Shown here: in pieces, positions 5,974 to 39,247 of the stretch
Position numbering within the stretch: position 1 is the stretch's first letter
How the letters are laid out: every line of letters begins with the position of its first letter
NCBI GenBank assembly: GCA_026989215.1
Contig: JALSJV010000323.1
Location: 1 to 39,389, forward strand
Source of the DNA: Acidimicrobiia bacterium
Lineage (GTDB): Bacteria; Actinomycetota; Acidimicrobiia; Spongiisociales; ZC4RG35
Direction: 5' to 3'
Length of the DNA stretch: 39,389 bases
Translations under genes and position numbers: made by a program
The notes under the pieces: generated by a model
Told to the model about the DNA's origin: nothing
What the model saw: only the letters and a program-made list of their open reading frames with translations
The model's database searches: none

Positions 5974-7191
5974 ATGGAGAGGCTGACGAGCCGCCGACTC
6001 GCCGGAGCCGGCGCCGCGATGCTGCTGGTGTTCGCGATCGCAGGGACGGGTTTCGCCGCGCAGGAGATTCCGCCCCAGGAGCCGGTGTGTCCGGCCGCGC
6101 CGGCAGGAGCGATCGTGGTCGACCTCACAGGATCGGGGAAGTTGTTCTCGTGGGCGAGCGTCACGTTGGCGACCGGCCAGCGCGTCTCGGTGAACGTGCC
6201 GGCGGGGACCTATGACATTCGACTGACATCCTTCGACCCCCACGTCGACGCCGAGGGAGACGTCCAAGAGACACAGCTCTACGAGCAGTACTTGGTGCGC
6301 GGGTACAACGGGGGCAGCGTCGTATGGACATCGGGTGCGATCGCCGATCTGCCCGACACCGAGAATCTGCTCACCCAGACCGTCGGGGTGGCGGTGACCG
6401 TTCCCGCGCTCGACGCGGTGGAGCCCTTCCACTCCGCCTACCCGGACAAGTCGTCGCCGAACTCGATCGAACCGGTGTGCATCGCCTTCATCCCGGTGAC
6501 GACGACGACGACGGTGCCGCCTACGACGACGACGACGGTGCCGCCTACGACGACGACGACGGTGCCGCCCACGACGACGACGACGGTGCCGCCCACCACG
6601 ACGACCACGGTGCCCGAGACGACCACCACCACGGCACCGGGCGGTCAGATCGGTGACCGGGTCTGGTTCGACGCCGACCGTGACGGGCAGCAGGGACCGG
6701 GCGAGGTCGGGATCGAAGGGGTCACGGTGGAGCTCATCGACGACGGGACCGGTACGGTGGTGGCGACCACGACCACCGACGCCGACGGCCTCTACCTGTT
6801 CGACGGGGTCGCCGCGGGCACGTACCGCGTCCGGTTCACCGCCCCGGCCGGGTTCGTCGGTTTCGCCGATCCGAACGTGGGAGACGAGGCCGTGGACAGC
6901 GACGCCCTGGCTCCGAGCGAGGAGGCGACGGTCGCCGAGACCGCGCCCTTCGCCCTCGCCGCCGGTGAGTCCAACCTCGCCGTGGACGCCGGGTTGGTGG
7001 TGAGGGTCGGAGGGATCCAGGTGACGACCACCACCTCGACGACCGCTCCGCCGGCGACGACGACGCCGTCGACGCTCCCCTTCACCGGCTTCGACGGGGC
7101 CGACGCGGGGCTCCTCGGTTTGGCGGCCCTGGCGTCGGGGCTCCTGCTGTTGGCCCTGGCCCGTGGACGGCGGGAGGACGAAGGGGTCTGA
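5974..7191 (+). CDS. LPFTG-anchored SdrD-type surface protein with TTTTTVPP linker
   Basis: This is a predicted cell-wall protein of 405 residues. ATG 5974 is preceded by GGGGAGG (5963-5969) and opens a clear signal peptide (MERLTSRRLAGAGAAMLLVFAIAGTGFAA). An N-terminal domain of unknown fold runs to about residue 174. A Thr/Pro linker of five TTTTTVPP-type units comes next. The following SdrD B-like (Cna_B type) domain begins GDRVWFDADRDGQQGPGE and contains TDADGLYLFDGVAAGTYRV. A second Thr-rich linker precedes LPFTG at 368-372, a membrane segment and the basic tail RGRRED. This order is typical of sortase substrates. No sortase gene lies in the window. The ligand is unknown. Expression probably starts at 5835. 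Confidence 0.8.
   Translation: MERLTSRRLAGAGAAMLLVFAIAGTGFAAQEIPPQEPVCPAAPAGAIVVDLTGSGKLFSWASVTLATGQRVSVNVPAGTYDIRLTSFDPHVDAEGDVQETQLYEQYLVRGYNGGSVVWTSGAIADLPDTENLLTQTVGVAVTVPALDAVEPFHSAYPDKSSPNSIEPVCIAFIPVTTTTTVPPTTTTTVPPTTTTTVPPTTTTTVPPTTTTTVPETTTTTAPGGQIGDRVWFDADRDGQQGPGEVGIEGVTVELIDDGTGTVVATTTTDADGLYLFDGVAAGTYRVRFTAPAGFVGFADPNVGDEAVDSDALAPSEEATVAETAPFALAAGESNLAVDAGLVVRVGGIQVTTTTSTTAPPATTTPSTLPFTGFDGADAGLLGLAALASGLLLLALARGRREDEGV
6499..6639 (+). repeat. 24-bp tandem repeat encoding TTTTTVPP
   Basis: Five 24-bp units (ACG x5, GTG CCG CCN) run from 6499 to 6618, followed by a decayed half unit to 6639. The first four are nearly identical at the DNA level and the fifth has diverged. The unit length is a multiple of three, so copy-number change would keep the frame and alter linker length. 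Confidence 0.9.
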
Positions 7192-32142: not shown

Positions 32143-33162
32143 TCACCTCGCCACGGGGATCCGGGCAAGGCGTTCGATCAGGTCCACGACCCGGTTCGAG
32201 TAGCCCCATTCGTTGTCGTACCACGACAACACCTTCACCAGGTTGCCGCCCAGGACGCGGGTCGCGCCCGCGTCGAAGATGCTCGAATGGGGGTTGCCGA
32301 TGATGTCGGTGGAGACCAGCGGCTCTTCGCTGTACTGGACGATTCCCTTCATCGGCCCCTCCGCCGCCGCCCTGACGGCGGCGTTGACCTCGTCGGCGGT
32401 GACGTCGCGTTCCAGCTCCACGACCAGGTCGACGGTGGACCCGTCGGGTACCGGCACCCGCATCGCCATCCCGTTCAGCTTGCCGTCGAGGCGGGGGAGG
32501 ACCTTGCCGACCGCCTTCGCCGCTCCGGTGGTCGTGGGGATGATGTTCTGGGTGGCGGCGCGGCTGCGACGCAGGTCCTTGTGGGGGACGTCGGCCAGGC
32601 GTTGATCGTTGGTGTAGGCGTGGACGGTCGTCATGATGCCGCGCCTGATGCCGAAGGCGTCGTCGAGCACCTTGGCCAGGGGGGCGAGGCAGTTCGTGGT
32701 GCACGAGGCGTTGGAGACGATGATGTCGGTCGGGTCCAGCTCCTCGTCGTTCACGCCGAGGACGACCGTCTGGTCGATCTCGTCCTTGGCGGGCACGGTG
32801 AGGATCACCCGTCCGGCTCCGGCGACGAGATGCTGTTCGAGCTGGGCCCGTTCCCGGAACCGGCCGGTCGACTCGACGACGATGTCGACCTCCAGCTCCT
32901 TCCAGGGGAGCTTCGCCGGTTCGGGCTCCATCAGCATGGCCACCCGATGGCGGCCGACGGTCATCGTGCCGTCCCCCACCTCGACGGGGATCTCGAACCG
33001 GCCCATCACCGTGTCGTAGACGAGGAGGTAGGCGAGGATGTCGTCGTCGGCCAGGTCGTTGATGGCGACGACCTCCAGATCGGGGTCGTCACGTTCGGCG
33101 ATGATCCGGAACACGGCGCGCCCGATGCGGCCGAATCCGTTGATGGCGACCTTGACGCTCAT
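32143..33162 (-). CDS. gap: Glyceraldehyde-3-phosphate dehydrogenase (active form)
   Basis: This glycolytic enzyme oxidises glyceraldehyde 3-phosphate to 1,3-bisphosphoglycerate with NAD+. It has 339 residues from ATG 33162, which overlaps the stop of the upstream paralogue (ATGA). The NAD-binding GFGRIGR is at 9-15. Catalytic Cys154 lies in SNASCTTNC and His181 in TTVHAYT. The phosphate-site residues are TTGAAK (211-216) and Arg235 (MAMRVP). WYDNEWGYS is at the C-terminus. All key residues are present. pgk and tpi do not follow; the gene ends 12 bases from the convergent receiver gene. Confidence 0.97.
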   Translation of the reverse strand: MSVKVAINGFGRIGRAVFRIIAERDDPDLEVVAINDLADDDILAYLLVYDTVMGRFEIPVEVGDGTMTVGRHRVAMLMEPEPAKLPWKELEVDIVVESTGRFRERAQLEQHLVAGAGRVILTVPAKDEIDQTVVLGVNDEELDPTDIIVSNASCTTNCLAPLAKVLDDAFGIRRGIMTTVHAYTNDQRLADVPHKDLRRSRAATQNIIPTTTGAAKAVGKVLPRLDGKLNGMAMRVPVPDGSTVDLVVELERDVTADEVNAAVRAAAEGPMKGIVQYSEEPLVSTDIIGNPHSSIFDAGATRVLGGNLVKVLSWYDNEWGYSNRVVDLIERLARIPVAR

Positions 33163-34187
33163 GCCGGCACTCCTTCCTTGACGGGGATCCGCATCAGGTC
33201 GAGGACGTCGACGACCCGGGCGGTGTAGCCCCAGCCGTTGTTGAACCAGGTGATCGTCTTCACCAGCGTCCCGTCCATCACCATCGTCGCCAGACTGTCG
33301 TACACCCCCGAATGGGTGGAGGAGTGGACGTCGGAGGAGACGATGGGGTCCTCCACGTACTCGATGATTCCGGCGAGACGTCCCTCGCAGGCCGAGCGGA
33401 TGGCGGCGTTGACCTCGGCGACGGTGGCGGAGGAGCGGACCTGGGTCACCAGGTCGACGGTCGAGCCGTCGGCGACGGGGACGTTGAGTGCCATGGCGGA
33501 CAGCTTGCCGGCGAACCGCGGCATCACCCATTCGAGGATCTCCGCCGAGTTCGTGTCGGTGGGGATGATGTTCTCTGCCGCCGCCCGGCTCTGACGGAAG
33601 CCTTCGGAGGGGACGTCGGCGAGGCGCTGGGTGTTGGTCATGGCGTGGACGGTGGTGAAGAACGCCCGCTCGATCCCGAAGGCCGTGTCGAGGACATCGA
33701 GGATGGGGGCGAGGGCGTTGGAGGTGTTCGAGCCGAGGGCGACGACCGGCACCTCCGGGGTCAAGACCTCGTCGTTGACACCCCGCAGCAGGATCGGGAT
33801 GTCGCCGGGCCGCTCCGGGGTGGAGGCGAGGACGACCTTGGCGGCTCCGGCCTCGATGTGGCGGTAGCACCATTCCGCGGTCCGGTATTTCCCGGTCGCC
33901 TGCACGACCAGGTCGACGCCCAGGTCCCCCCAGGGGGCGTCCCCCGGCTCGCGGGCGTCGATGAACGGGATCCGCCGACCGTCGAGGAACAGGTTGTCGT
34001 CGGCGAACTCGAGGGGGCGGGGGAAACGTCCGTAGATGGAGTCGTACTTGAGCAGATAGGTGAGGCCGGCGGGGTCGGCGATGTCGGCGATCGCCACCAC
34101 CTCGAGGCGGGGGTGGTCGTGCAACATCCGGAACACGTTGCGGCCGATCCTCCCGAATCCCATCAGGCCTACGCGGGCACGGCTCAT
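33159..34187 (-). CDS. GAPDH paralogue lacking the catalytic cysteine (predicted pseudoenzyme)
   Basis: The product is a full-length GAPDH fold of 342 residues from ATG 34187, with GGAAG nine bases upstream; GTG 34193 is too close to that site. It aligns without gaps to the downstream GAPDH across the catalytic domain. Cys154 is Asn (LGSNTSNALAP), TTGAAK 211-216 is DTNSAE, and Arg235 is Asn (MALNVP). His181 is kept. The NAD-site motifs GFGRIGRN and WFNNGWGY are also kept. It should bind NAD but not carry out the thiol-dependent reaction. The frame is clean, so this is not decay. The four-base overlap with the active gene suggests equal synthesis and mixed tetramers, or a regulatory role. Confidence 0.88.
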   Translation of the reverse strand: MSRARVGLMGFGRIGRNVFRMLHDHPRLEVVAIADIADPAGLTYLLKYDSIYGRFPRPLEFADDNLFLDGRRIPFIDAREPGDAPWGDLGVDLVVQATGKYRTAEWCYRHIEAGAAKVVLASTPERPGDIPILLRGVNDEVLTPEVPVVALGSNTSNALAPILDVLDTAFGIERAFFTTVHAMTNTQRLADVPSEGFRQSRAAAENIIPTDTNSAEILEWVMPRFAGKLSAMALNVPVADGSTVDLVTQVRSSATVAEVNAAIRSACEGRLAGIIEYVEDPIVSSDVHSSTHSGVYDSLATMVMDGTLVKTITWFNNGWGYTARVVDVLDLMRIPVKEGVPA

Positions 34188-34219
34188 GTCCACTGCTTCC
34201 TTTCGCGTCGTCGAACGTC

Positions 34220-36077: not shown

Positions 36078-36096
36078 GACACGGTGCAACCGTGTC
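36078..36096. promoter_or_regulatory. 19-bp perfect palindrome, operator-like
   Basis: GACACGGT-GCA-ACCGTGTC is a perfect 8-bp inverted repeat with a 3-bp spacer. It abuts a possible -10 element (CAGAAT, 36096-36101) of the nucleotidyltransferase gene. A repressor bound there would block transcription. No regulator gene of the TetR/GntR type is adjacent. Confidence 0.5.
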
Positions 36097-36109
36097 AGAA
36101 TCGTTCTCG

Positions 36110-36670
36110 ATGGGAGCGGCCGCCGGATCTCCAAGGCCCGTGTCCGACATGTCGGCAGAGGACGTCGTCTGGTTCCTCGGCCTCGTGGATCGTCTCGGCA
36201 TCGAGGTGTGGCTCGACGGTGGCTGGGGTGTCGACGCACGCTTGGGGGAGCAGACACGGAGGCACCGTGATCTCGACGTCGTCGTCGAACAGCAGGACCT
36301 CAGGGCGCTTCGGGAGGCGCTCGCCGCCTCTGGCTTCGTGGATTCCCCGACGGAGGATCGAACCGACTGGAACTTCGTCCTCGTCGATCCGGAAGGCCGT
36401 CGCATCGACGTCCACGTCATCGTGATCGACGAGCACGGCAACGGCATCTACGGTCCGGCGGAGAACGGTATCTTCTACCCGGCGTCCGCGCTCACAGGCT
36501 CGGGCTCGGTTGGAGGTCGGCCGGTTCGCTGTCTTACCCCCGAGTACCAGGTGCAGTCGCACACCGGCTACGAGTTGGACGAGAACGACCTCAGCGACGT
36601 CATGGCGCTCCACGAACGCTTCGGCGTTCCCTTGTCCGAAGAGCAGCGGCGAGCTTCGGACAGGGGGTAG
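36110..36670 (+). CDS. LinA/ANT-like nucleotidyltransferase (lincosamide/aminoglycoside type)
   Basis: This small nucleotidyltransferase has 186 residues if ATG 36110 is used. ATG 36149 (MSAEDVVWFLGLVDRLG) matches the usual family start, and GTG 36092 is also in frame, so the start is uncertain. Numbering from ATG 36149, the polymerase-beta-type motif is GGW at 24-26 with Asp41 and Asp43 (HRDLDVVV), and a third acidic residue is Asp87 (RIDVHVI). The C-terminal part GGRPVRCLTPEYQVQSHTGYEL resembles LinA/Lnu-type enzymes, which adenylylate lincosamides. The true substrate is unknown; resistance is only a possibility. It lies in the accessory islet. Confidence 0.8.
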   Translation: MGAAAGSPRPVSDMSAEDVVWFLGLVDRLGIEVWLDGGWGVDARLGEQTRRHRDLDVVVEQQDLRALREALAASGFVDSPTEDRTDWNFVLVDPEGRRIDVHVIVIDEHGNGIYGPAENGIFYPASALTGSGSVGGRPVRCLTPEYQVQSHTGYELDENDLSDVMALHERFGVPLSEEQRRASDRG

Positions 36671-36722: not shown

Positions 36723-37616
36723 CTAGCTCCACCGACCCGCCGTGGGATCCCACGTGCCGCCGGCGGTGCCATCGAGGAGCGGGTCGAGGAATGGTGTCAC
36801 GACGGCGAGTGCGGTGTCCAGGGTGAGGGCCGTCGTCAGCAGGGATCGTCGAGCTTCCGCCGCGTAGCCCCGCTCCCAGAGTTGACGATCGGGAACCGAG
36901 AAGGCGGTCGGAAGGTCGATGCTGCGTCGGTCGGCCTCCGACCGGAGCGCGGCGAGCTGCAGTGCCGCTTCGACGGTGGCTCGGGTGACGATGGCGACGA
37001 GGTCCACGAGATCCTTGTATCGGGTCGACGGGACACGTCCGGTGCCGTAGGTCTGCAGGATGGCGGACACCTTGTCGGCGATGTGATCGACGAGCGGATA
37101 GACGACGTAGCCGTGCTGTTCGATGTCCGGCATGGCGACGCGGGCGAGCGCCGGCACCCGCTCGGGCCAGCCGGTGAGACGGACCTCGGCTCCGACGAGG
37201 TCGACCCGGAAGCTGCACCACTGCGTCGCCCCGATCGAGGACGTGACCGGTAGACGGACACCAACAGCACCTGCGGTGAGCGTCTGTCTGGGTCCGATCT
37301 CGAACCGGAACCAGTCTCCGATGTCCTGTCGCGCCGCCTGACGCAGCTCGGCTTCGGCCACCTCCAAGGCGGCGGATCGGTAGAGGTCGACGTCGATCGT
37401 CGCGCGCACACCGAGATCACGGGCCAGGAGCGCGGTCGCGCCCTTCACGATCCAGCCGTCGTCGACGAGGTAGAGGCGCTCGAGCAGCCGGTCGTAGGCG
37501 ATCTGCCGCTGAAGCTGCGGCAGCGACCAGCGACTGGTCTTCGCCATGGCACGCAGCTTGTCCGTCAAGGCACGGCGAAACGCGGTCGGGCTCCCGTACG
37601 ACCGATCGCGGGCCAT
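36723..37616 (-). CDS. abiEii: AbiEii-type toxin (nucleotidyltransferase)
   Basis: This is the toxin component of a type IV-class AbiE toxin-antitoxin and phage-abortive module. The family is DNA-polymerase-beta-like, and members can modify tRNA ends. The product has 297 residues from ATG 37616, overlapping the abiEi stop (ATGA). The nucleotidyltransferase core is visible: IVKGATALLARD near 56-67, then RATIDVDL with Asp75 and Asp77. A helical C-terminal half follows (DKVSAILQTYGTGRVPSTRYKDLVDLVAI). The motif KGAT replaces the more common KGGT. A longer upstream frame overlaps abiEi and is rejected. Confidence 0.85.
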   Translation of the reverse strand: MARDRSYGSPTAFRRALTDKLRAMAKTSRWSLPQLQRQIAYDRLLERLYLVDDGWIVKGATALLARDLGVRATIDVDLYRSAALEVAEAELRQAARQDIGDWFRFEIGPRQTLTAGAVGVRLPVTSSIGATQWCSFRVDLVGAEVRLTGWPERVPALARVAMPDIEQHGYVVYPLVDHIADKVSAILQTYGTGRVPSTRYKDLVDLVAIVTRATVEAALQLAALRSEADRRSIDLPTAFSVPDRQLWERGYAAEARRSLLTTALTLDTALAVVTPFLDPLLDGTAGGTWDPTAGRWS

Positions 37617-38347
37617 CAGCGGCTCCTGGTCGAAGGTGACGCCGATCGAGATCCGGTGTGCCGCATGGCATGGGCCGTCGTCTCGTTGATCCACTGTGCG
37701 GTGTCCGGATCGTCGACGACCTCGAGGAGCCAGCGGAGGAGTGCGAGGCCATCGCCCCGGCGGAGGCCGAAGCGAGCAGCGAGCGGGGCGAGGGAGTCGG
37801 CGAAGGCGCCCGGGTCGTCGCGGCCGCCTCTGATGGCGTCGACGATCACGGCGGCGACCGCCCCGGGGTCCTCGTGGTCTCCCAGGAGATCGGCGGCGAT
37901 GCGGGACGGCCTGGTGACCGGAAGGCCGCGCAGCTCGATCCATTCATGCGCGGCGATGGGTCGCCGGTGGATCCGCACGTCGGCCCGTCGTGTCTGTCGT
38001 CTCGAGGGCAGCGTGAACTCGTGGATGTCCGCTGGGAGGTGCCCGAGCCCGTAGAGCGCTGCCGCGGAGCGGTGCGACACGACTCCCTGCTCTGGGGTGC
38101 GTTCCCATGCCGGGACGGCGGGGGCGAGTTGGAGCCAGGCGGCACGCAGCTCGGCATGATCCGGTAGGGGAGCCCCCGCCAGGTGATACACGCCGTGGGC
38201 GACCCGTTCGAGGATGGATCCGTCCGCGGCGAGCCGGTCGAACGTCGATCGCGGCACGCCGGCCTTCTCGGCCTGGGCGCGCGTGACCAGACCCCATTGG
38301 TCCTCGGCGAGTTCCGCGAGGCGGCGGACGGTGCTGGTTCGGGCCAT
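37616..38347 (-). CDS. abiEi: AbiEi-type antitoxin/repressor
   Basis: This winged-helix antitoxin represses its own operon and counteracts AbiEii. It has 243 residues from ATG 38347. The N-terminal winged-helix region is RRLAELAEDQWGLVTRAQAEKAGVPRSTFDRLAADGSILERVAHGVYHLAG. A C-terminal AbiEi_4-like domain follows (VVSHRSAAALYGLGHLPADIHEFTLPSRRQ). A -10 box (38354-38359) is placed so that ATG 38347 would be the first transcribed base, and there is no ribosome site. Two direct repeats upstream are probable operator sites. The stop overlaps the toxin start, giving coupled translation. Confidence 0.87.
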   Translation of the reverse strand: MARTSTVRRLAELAEDQWGLVTRAQAEKAGVPRSTFDRLAADGSILERVAHGVYHLAGAPLPDHAELRAAWLQLAPAVPAWERTPEQGVVSHRSAAALYGLGHLPADIHEFTLPSRRQTRRADVRIHRRPIAAHEWIELRGLPVTRPSRIAADLLGDHEDPGAVAAVIVDAIRGGRDDPGAFADSLAPLAARFGLRRGDGLALLRWLLEVVDDPDTAQWINETTAHAMRHTGSRSASPSTRSR

Positions 38348-38353
38348 AGCTGC

Positions 38354-38382
38354 ATCATACCCCATAAATGGAGGAAAACGAA
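38354..38382 (-). promoter_or_regulatory. abiE promoter, predicted leaderless
   Basis: On the minus strand TTCGTT (38382 down to 38377), 17 bases, then TATGAT (38359 down to 38354). Six bases separate the -10 from A of ATG 38347. The -35 lies inside the proximal direct repeat. Confidence 0.55.
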
Positions 38383-38387
38383 GTATC
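38368..38387. promoter_or_regulatory. AbiEi operator candidate, proximal copy
   Basis: The copy reads ATGGAGGAAAACGAAGTATC. It matches the distal copy at 18 of 20 positions and overlaps the -35 box, so binding would block RNA polymerase. Confidence 0.6.
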
Positions 38388-38404
38388 GATCTATACACAC
38401 GTCT

Positions 38405-38418
38405 GCGATATCTATCGC
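38405..38418. repeat. 14-bp palindrome between the operator repeats
   Basis: GCGATA-TC-TATCGC is a perfect 6-bp inverted repeat centred between the two direct repeats. A second imperfect palindrome, GTATCGATCTATAC, lies at 38383-38396. Both sit in the AT-rich control region. Confidence 0.4.
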
Positions 38419-38420
38419 CT

Positions 38421-38440
38421 ATGGAGGTAAACGCAGTATC
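38421..38440. promoter_or_regulatory. AbiEi operator candidate, distal copy
   Basis: The copy reads ATGGAGGTAAACGCAGTATC. It lies exactly 53 bp from the proximal copy, about five helical turns, and has the same orientation. Confidence 0.6.
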
Positions 38441-38457
38441 AGCAAAGGACGCCCTTC

Positions 38458-39226
38458 TCACGTCTCGATTCCGATGACCGCGGACGCGGCCTGAGTCGGC
38501 CGGGGACTCGCAAGCGACCGTTTTTGCCCCGCTTCGAGGGCGTCGGCAGCCTCCCGGTGCGCAAACAGGCGCCCGACCACGTCGTAGATGCGCCGGGTCG
38601 AGTCGTGGCAGAGCACATCAGCGTGGGGGTTCCATGCTTTGTTGTACGGTGCGACGTTCGCTCCCCGACGAATGCCCGAGCTGATCGCTCGTCTCGTCAC
38701 CGAGGGTCCTTCACCAAAGCCGATCGACGCTGGTGTGTAGGTCGAGGCCGAGGCGACGGCATGAGCCGAACTCTGACTCCGGGCCGGCTGGTGATCCGTC
38801 GAGGTCGGGCCGCGCAGCGGAGCGCCTGCGCGGCTCGGGGGAGTGCGGTCCTCGAGATGTCGTGGATGCACACGAACAGGGCTCACCGGTCTGCCCAGCA
38901 GTCTGGCGGATCGGGGAGTGATGGAGGCCATCGATGTCGCGGATCTCGAATGTCGTGTGGTGTGTGGCGACGAGGATGGAGGCCGCCGCGCCGTCGCCGA
39001 CCCACGCGATCGTGGCCATCACGTCCTCGAACGGGTGGCCCGGGTAGTTGAGGAGGCGGTAGACGCCCCGGCTGATCCGCTCGAGGTTGCCCGAGCGGAC
39101 GTGGTGGGAGAGATAGCGGCGGTCGACTTCCAGTTCTTCTGCCTGGCTCGTGCTGGAATAGCCGAGCTGGGTATCGGCGAGGGAGTAGAGGCGGTCGAGG
39201 ACCCGCCTCTCGGGCCTGAATGTCAT
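38458..39226 (-). pseudogene. AbiEi-like gene, probably disrupted
   Basis: From ATG 39226 the minus strand encodes a convincing AbiEi-type N-terminus. It reads MTFRPERRVLDRLYSLADTQLGYSSTSQAEELEVDRRYLSHHVRSGNLERISRGVYRLLNYPG in outline, with winged-helix features over about 10-60. After about residue 90 (WVGDGAAAS) the frame becomes Ser/Arg/Pro-rich and ends at 38711. A second frame from about 38931 to 38458 then carries plausible protein sequence (PSVTRRAISSGIRRG). One or more frameshifts probably destroyed the C-terminal domain. No AbiEii partner follows. The start codon lies in a 35-bp palindrome. Confidence 0.5.
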
Positions 39227-39247
39227 AGTAACTATGACATTCAGGCC
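39213..39247. promoter_or_regulatory. Perfect 35-bp palindrome over the AbiEi-like start codon
   Basis: GGCCTGAATGTCATAGT (39213-39229), a single A at 39230, then the exact reverse complement (39231-39247). Each arm contains an ATG reading MTFRP in opposite directions. Its AT-rich core lies in GC-rich DNA. It may be an autoregulatory operator or a recombination site. Confidence 0.8.

Follow-up and report, generated by a model that had tools for sequence, protein, structure and literature searches.

According to the accessible parts of two papers, the AbiEi antitoxin of S. agalactiae and Rv2827c of M. tuberculosis bind each inverted repeat as monomers and repress their own promoters (PMC3985639; PMC7319586). 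In the Rv2827c-Rv2826c operon, as described in the available portion of PMC7319586, the AbiEi-family antitoxin gene comes first and two tandem inverted-repeat pairs lie upstream, each 59 bp wide (23+13+23) and repeating with a 63-bp period, with the proximal pair over the promoter. For that promoter, both the binding order and the negative cooperativity with which Rv2827c binds its two repeat pairs were established; Rv1044, in the same source, showed no binding to its tested upstream region. In S. agalactiae the operator consists of a single pair of inverted repeats (23-3-23) that measures 49 bp in all; one arm covers the -35, and a ribosome-binding site follows the start site (available part of PMC3985639; Hampton 2018 as cited). 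The AbiEi of S. suis ICESsuHN105 represses by binding two palindromic promoter elements, either of which alone is enough for binding, and it also binds oriT, going by the accessible text of PMC11062541. The available excerpt of Dy 2014 (PMC3985639) also points to repeats of a similar kind ahead of other abiE loci, shown in a supplementary figure.

We compared with these systems an abiE locus in 39,389 nucleotides of a draft genome of an Acidimicrobiia bacterium (this whole stretch is called the window). The locus resembles Rv2827c-Rv2826c in gene order, in having two tandem inverted-repeat pairs upstream (as do 17 of 19 loci overall) and in the position of the proximal pair over the promoter; the antitoxin autorepression described there is predicted here. 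It differs in its dimensions, with pairs of 38 bp, flanks included, and a period of 53 bp. With the S. agalactiae operator it shares inverted repeats with one arm over the -35, and the outer end TGTTGC there resembles TACTGC here; AbiEi binds each arm and represses in that system, while binding is predicted in ours. Unlike S. agalactiae, the window has two pairs of 38 bp rather than one of 49 bp, and no leader is predicted. Whereas oriT is also bound in S. suis, sites outside the abiE locus were not in excess in the genome here. The differences in width and period between systems are close to one or two helical turns, on the assumption that the outer ends correspond. We found no description of the twin-dyad layout in the present clade in the available portions of the AbiEi operator literature, including PMC7319586, PMC3985639, PMC11062541 and PMC7725324. 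The control switch is of a largely known kind; its arrangement is new.

The abiE operon and its surroundings

The two genes form an operon with the antitoxin gene first, as in type IV AbiE systems, and the abiEii start overlaps the abiEi stop (TGATG, from sequence). The first protein combines an N-terminal winged helix with an AbiEi C-terminal domain (PF13338 above the cut-off, PF09407 below the cut-off), and the second is a DUF1814 nucleotidyltransferase toxin by both PF08843 and PADLOC. No NCBIfam family matched AbiEi or AbiEii at E<=0.1, and a PDB search by sequence with AbiEi alone returned nothing at E<=0.1; searching the PDB with an AbiEi profile gave one weak AbiGI match (E 0.94). An AlphaFold2 model of AbiEi (mean pLDDT 90) had N-terminal-domain helices at residues 2-16, 23-28 and 33-39. 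Its top Foldseek matches were S. agalactiae AbiEi (6y8q, E 1e-6; VIA Z 11.6, rmsd 5.2, 181 aligned) and Rv2827c (1zel, E 6e-5; VIA Z 9.3, rmsd 4.7, 196 aligned), with TM-scores of 0.4-0.5.

Table 1. Coordinates of the operon and of its upstream elements in the window
Feature	Position	Strand	Details
abiEi, antitoxin, predicted autorepressor	37616-38347	-	243 aa; ATG 38345-38347; PF13338 5.6e-11; PADLOC AbiEi 4.2e-78
abiEii, DUF1814 nucleotidyltransferase toxin	36723-37616	-	297 aa; PF08843 4.5e-15; PADLOC AbiEii 3.1e-82
-10 hexamer TATGAT	38354-38359	-	-12 to -7 from start codon; leaderless transcript predicted
D2, promoter-proximal operator dyad (predicted), CTTCGTTTTCCTCCATTTATGGGGTATGATGCAG	38350-38383	-	34 bp; left arm 38367-38383, right arm 38350-38366
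Spacer D1-D2	38384-38402	-	19 bp; length kept, sequence mostly variable
D1, upstream operator dyad (predicted), CTGCGTTTACCTCCATAGGCGATAGATATCGCAG	38403-38436	-	34 bp; left arm 38420-38436, right arm 38403-38419
Repeat 1, ATGGAGGAAAACGAAGTATC	38368-38387	+	most of D2 left arm plus flank
Repeat 2, ATGGAGGTAAACGCAGTATC	38421-38440	+	most of D1 left arm plus flank
GCGATA-TC-TATCGC palindrome	38405-38418	.	D1 columns 19-32; incidental

The operon is patchily distributed: of 395 class genomes, 36 have an AbiEii match (E<=0.001). One locus, L065, has AbiEi and both dyads with no AbiEii match in the ~1.3 kb downstream to the contig end, and may hold an orphan antitoxin. The window itself contains a second, truncated AbiEi-like gene at 38711-39238 (-) (PF13338 7.9e-10), whose start codon lies in a 35-bp palindrome at 39213-39247 with 17/17 pairs. 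A relative 87% identical (L096) keeps this palindrome with 16/18 pairs and changed outer arms, and L097-L099 carry a different palindrome at the same place. The palindrome at the truncated gene is a different operator class.

A stretch at ~38457-38607 (-) aligns over 157 columns, at 79.6% DNA identity, with the terminal part of a gene that lies directly upstream of abiEi in L063 and matches PF00589 (1.1e-18). By this resemblance it is a probable tyrosine recombinase remnant, a hint that an integrative element brought the operon in. The ORF at 38461-38931 had no Pfam match. A role of tRNA-Ala as attachment site was rejected, since nowhere else in the window are 12 or more bases of the tRNA repeated exactly. 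In a genome of the same genus (G022), locus L010 has at 1353-1613 pieces like the recombinase end and the middle of abiEi, separated by 76 bp in place of 314 bp; these 76 bp resemble neither the operator nor the 5' part of abiEi, bar a short stretch (1450-1458) like the D2 right arm. Beyond abiEii lies a gene that matches the aminoglycoside-2''-adenylyltransferase family (36092-36667, +; PF10706, 1.3e-32), and two neighbouring ORFs at ~32143-34193 (-) presumably encode glyceraldehyde-3-phosphate dehydrogenases, as which they read.

Tandem dyads at the predicted abiE promoter

We kept 19 distinct loci, the window included, with AbiEi 51-100% identical to that of the window. A scan of genome contigs supplied 7, and the remainder came from 34 family genomes, 395 class genomes (searched with AbiEii), 396 phylum genomes (the source of L072 and L074), 138 order genomes and smaller sets; other profile searches for orthologues, beyond the phylum set, added no usable locus. 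Duplicates, loci without upstream sequence and homologues below 50% identity were left out before counting. Also left out were L090, L085 and L045, whose genes are cut by the contig start; L076, which is 50% identical over just 146 residues and gave no dyad with the pattern applied; L010, a decayed fragment; and loci found by AbiEii without a visible AbiEi match, such as L042 and L050. An AbiEi alignment search of viral contigs gave 5 stretches that matched a pattern, none encoding a relative, and phage records gave no match. Among plasmids 95 records matched, all below 60% identity; 6 of the 30 plasmid loci listed were inspected, with dyad-like sites in L101, L102, L104 and L106 and nothing clear in L103 and L105.

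Two tandem dyads were present in 17 of the 19 loci, the window among them, 53 bp apart in 15 and 52 bp apart in 2. Their consensus over the 19 loci, window included, is CTKCR-N8-C-N6-G-N8-YGMAG. C1, T2, G31, A33 and G34 are invariant in both dyads, the ends CT.CR/YG.AG and the inner C14/G21 are nearly invariant, and TR/YA flanks surround D1 in most loci. To place D2 we used the end that adjoins the start codon; D1 was then taken at a constant distance of 53 bp further upstream (52 bp in L064). D2 was found in 18/18 scored loci and D1 in 16/18, the window counted in both, and in L073 both dyads are 33-bp forms, spaced by 52 bp; D2 is kept and D1 missing in L074 and L039. Of the 16 loci that have two 34-bp dyads, 15 keep a spacer of 19 bp and L064 has one of 18 bp; the inner columns of the spacer mostly hold little information. 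D2 starts at -36 in 13/18 loci and at -35 to -39 in 5/18. In the window it spans -36 to -3, ending 2 bp before the start codon, so that, as expected of an AbiEi autorepressor operator, inverted repeats overlap the abiEi promoter with the -10 inside them. The arms of the window self-pair weakly (8/17 in D1, 10/17 in D2), so the dyads were not callable from the window sequence alone; pairing was 8-13/17 in loci with both dyads. Judged by these 19 loci, the operator is conserved and real, and most likely autoregulatory.

The preliminary description had reported two 20-bp repeats in the same orientation, one of them over the -35 and the two about five helical turns apart. We recovered them where it placed them, 18/20 identical, 53 bp start to start with a gap of 33 bp, and the proximal one does overlap the -35 position; no recognisable promoter lies beneath the upstream repeat (38421-38440). 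Their reading as an AbiEi operator in two copies is most likely right and incomplete: by the alignment of loci each direct repeat supplies the left arm of an inverted-repeat dyad, so that half of each site had been seen. The right arms had been missed, which gives four half-sites in all, with the -10 within a right arm that had gone unlisted. The perfect GCGATA/TATCGC palindrome noted between the repeats is present, and its far end belongs to the conserved D1 right arm, but as an operator of its own it was rejected, its columns 19 and 20 not being conserved (G in 1/16 loci at column 19, C in 6/16 at column 20). We ran the comparison among homologous operons that had been proposed, and the repeats, present as both dyads in 17/19 loci, co-evolve within loci. 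Loss of the repeats beside a kept promoter, which the description had set against its own reading, was looked for as well: L074 and L039 keep D2 with its -10 region and lack D1.

We resampled the 130-bp upstream region 20000 times (first order), and in no resample did two 20-mers at least 18/20 identical lie within 100 bp. Across the whole window, 8 pairs of this similarity stand within 200 bp. A single tandem array near 6.5 kb accounts for 6 of these; each of 20 resampled windows contained 0 or 1 pair. Near that position, at ~6497-6620, repeats stand at multiples of 24 bp, probably as a tandem array. The bacterium's own draft genome (340 contigs, 3 Mb) contained no further site for the repeats at <=3 mismatches.

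A TANNNT hexamer occupies dyad columns 25-30 in 17/18 D2 sites versus 1/16 D1 sites. In the window the D2 left arm lies over the -35 position and the right arm over the -10 hexamer. Positions -12 to -7 are the classical distance of a -10 from the transcription start. Since the hexamer has this distance from the ATG, we predict that the abiE mRNA is leaderless and starts at or next to the ATG. The -35 in the window is poor, and a generic sigma-70 promoter scan found no promoter.

When a profile was built on 12 D1 sites from distant loci, with the window, L081, L082 and L083 excluded, the two best matches in the 39 kb were the dyads of the window, D2 at 27.6 and D1 at 24.3; the next match scored 6.6. 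With a combined D1 and D2 profile (26 sites) D2 scored 33.1 and D1 23.8, against best scores of 2.2-10.4 in ten resampled windows; when the AT-rich upstream region, dyads included, was resampled to 400 kb, the best score was 27.9, above D1 and below D2. Searching for the consensus with flanks at <=2 mismatches returned these two dyads only, versus 0.15 expected. The degenerate dyad pattern, a weak one, gave 190 matches genome-wide at <=1 mismatch versus 252 in a reversed control; there being no excess, we claim no regulon. Among the matches listed, five besides the two window sites matched the degenerate consensus exactly.

Arms also changed together within loci. Agreement between the D1 and D2 left arms was 183 versus 140.4 in permuted pairings (z=5.5, p<=5e-5, the permutation floor; n=16), and agreement likewise exceeded permuted pairings for the two right arms (p=0.011), for D1 left with its own right arm (p=0.012) and for D2 left with its own right arm (p=0.006), each with n=16. 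All four tests gave p<=0.022 without L081, L082 and L083, and the D1 left-right test was marginal (p=0.043) when the conserved outer five columns were removed.

Residue 37 of AbiEi and base 13 of the half-site

Half-site base 13 follows residue 37 of AbiEi, in the third helix, as we first saw in the arm table of 15 loci. Across 19 loci, at least 50% of arms carried C13 in 10/10 loci with an acidic residue 37 and in 0/9 with a non-acidic one (Fisher 1.1e-5). Under a stricter threshold of >50% C13 the counts were 7/10 versus 0/9 (p=0.003); the link depends on the threshold. The chemistry would be that of an acid facing the amino group of cytosine. Predictions made beforehand were an acidic residue for L072 and Q or A for L074 and L039, and we observed D, T and A, respectively, so that all three were right as acidic or non-acidic and the exact residue was wrong for L074. 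Residue 37 of L073 was already visible in the alignment, which placed that locus outside the predicted set.

Residues 1-60 were scanned against the columns, 392 pairs in all, uncorrected for the 392 tests or for descent. Four pairs reached the permutation floor, two of them with residue 37 (columns 11 and 13), one with residue 45 (column 15) and one with residue 40 (column 8). Residue 37 also showed up with columns 10 and 12. On the best AbiEi tree, residue 37 and base 13 each change five times; the tree is poorly resolved, with 2/16 inner branches starred and one independent pair on starred branches, so the five co-changes are not firmly independent. Together the fold match of the model and the co-variation of residue 37 make AbiEi the likely reader of the dyads.

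Proposed mechanism, alternatives and significance

Going by the comparison of loci, the feature is very probably the operator-promoter of a type IV abiE operon with tandem AbiEi dyads, D2 serving to block and D1 to tune. Sequence comparison supplied the dyads, their positions, the kept spacing, the conserved -10 and the co-variation with the recognition helix; AbiEi binding, repression, the leaderless start, cooperation and the helix face are what we infer from it. By analogy with the described systems, four AbiEi monomers would sit through their winged-helix domains on four half-sites along one DNA face, two 34-bp dyads, each of two inverted half-sites, standing in tandem with a 53-bp period of about five helical turns. 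Occupancy of D2 would block RNA polymerase, D1 would strengthen or tune repression through neighbour contacts or bending, and a fall in AbiEi would allow both genes to be expressed again. The kept 53-bp period supports action on one DNA face. Autorepression by AbiEi on one DNA face is likely, and is perhaps cooperative; given that Rv2827c shows negative cooperativity and that Rv1044 did not bind, positive cooperation, and even autoregulation, are not assured here.

It could be argued that D1 is a relic or a weak accessory and that D2 alone represses, which is compatible with the rest of the proposed mechanism. L074 and L039 have D2 only, and an unsystematic look at more distant relatives such as L047, L048 and L101 showed a single dyad-like site, but D1 stands at a fixed spacing in 17/19 loci and its sequence changes together with that of D2, and we regard a relic D1 as unlikely. 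A pair of direct-repeat operators bound separately by AbiEi, with looping or cooperation between them, seems to us quite improbable. Such a pair fits the arms of the window, where left arms match best between D1 and D2 (14/17, versus 7/17 for right arms), and the left arms co-vary most strongly (z=5.5). The right arms, however, are equally placed and carry invariant G31, A33 and G34 (16/16 D1, 18/18 D2), and left and right arms agree within loci beyond permuted pairings. Fifty-three base pairs is a short distance for DNA looping, which the preliminary description had entertained; looping is unlikely at that distance, and side-by-side cooperation or bending would fit better. The AbiEi sites studied earlier are moreover inverted, according to the accessible parts of PMC3985639 and PMC7319586.

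Binding of AbiEi to the dyads is itself predicted here, which leaves room for a host regulator other than AbiEi as their reader. We consider this very improbable: the repeats are unique to the abiE locus in the genome, the degenerate pattern has no genome-wide excess (190 versus 252 in the reversed control), the dyads accompany AbiEi in records labelled Streptosporangiaceae, Kribbella and Chloroflexi, and residue 37 co-varies with them. Inverted repeats could also act as RNA hairpins, in an attenuator or leader structure. With the -10 inside D2 and the start predicted at the ATG, neither dyad would be transcribed from that promoter; pairing is modest (8-13/17 in two-dyad loci) and the length of the D1-D2 spacer is kept, so that hairpins appear scarcely credible.

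For the tandem AbiEi operator, a broader joint reading is tentative, and we think it somewhat more apt to fail than to hold. It combines three elements: a leaderless promoter carrying a fixed operator array for four monomers, a residue-37 code and a whole-turn geometry. Under the code, an acidic residue 37 would read C13, glutamine, alanine or threonine would read T13, and alanine together with tryptophan 33 would read G13; under the geometry, pair width (38, 49, 59 bp) and period (53, 63 bp) would change in whole helical turns across AbiEi families. If the joint reading is true, sequence alone could suffice to predict which operator an AbiEi uses and how the AbiEi is insulated from sister systems. 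In the available parts of the published work that we compared, AbiEi operators have so far been dissected singly, system by system. Nineteen loci with a twin-dyad operator and a recognition-helix residue tied to it offer a testable specificity rule and a predicted leaderless promoter, and the set bears on the joint action of type IV antitoxins on DNA. It also suggests a way in which several AbiE systems could be kept insulated from one another.
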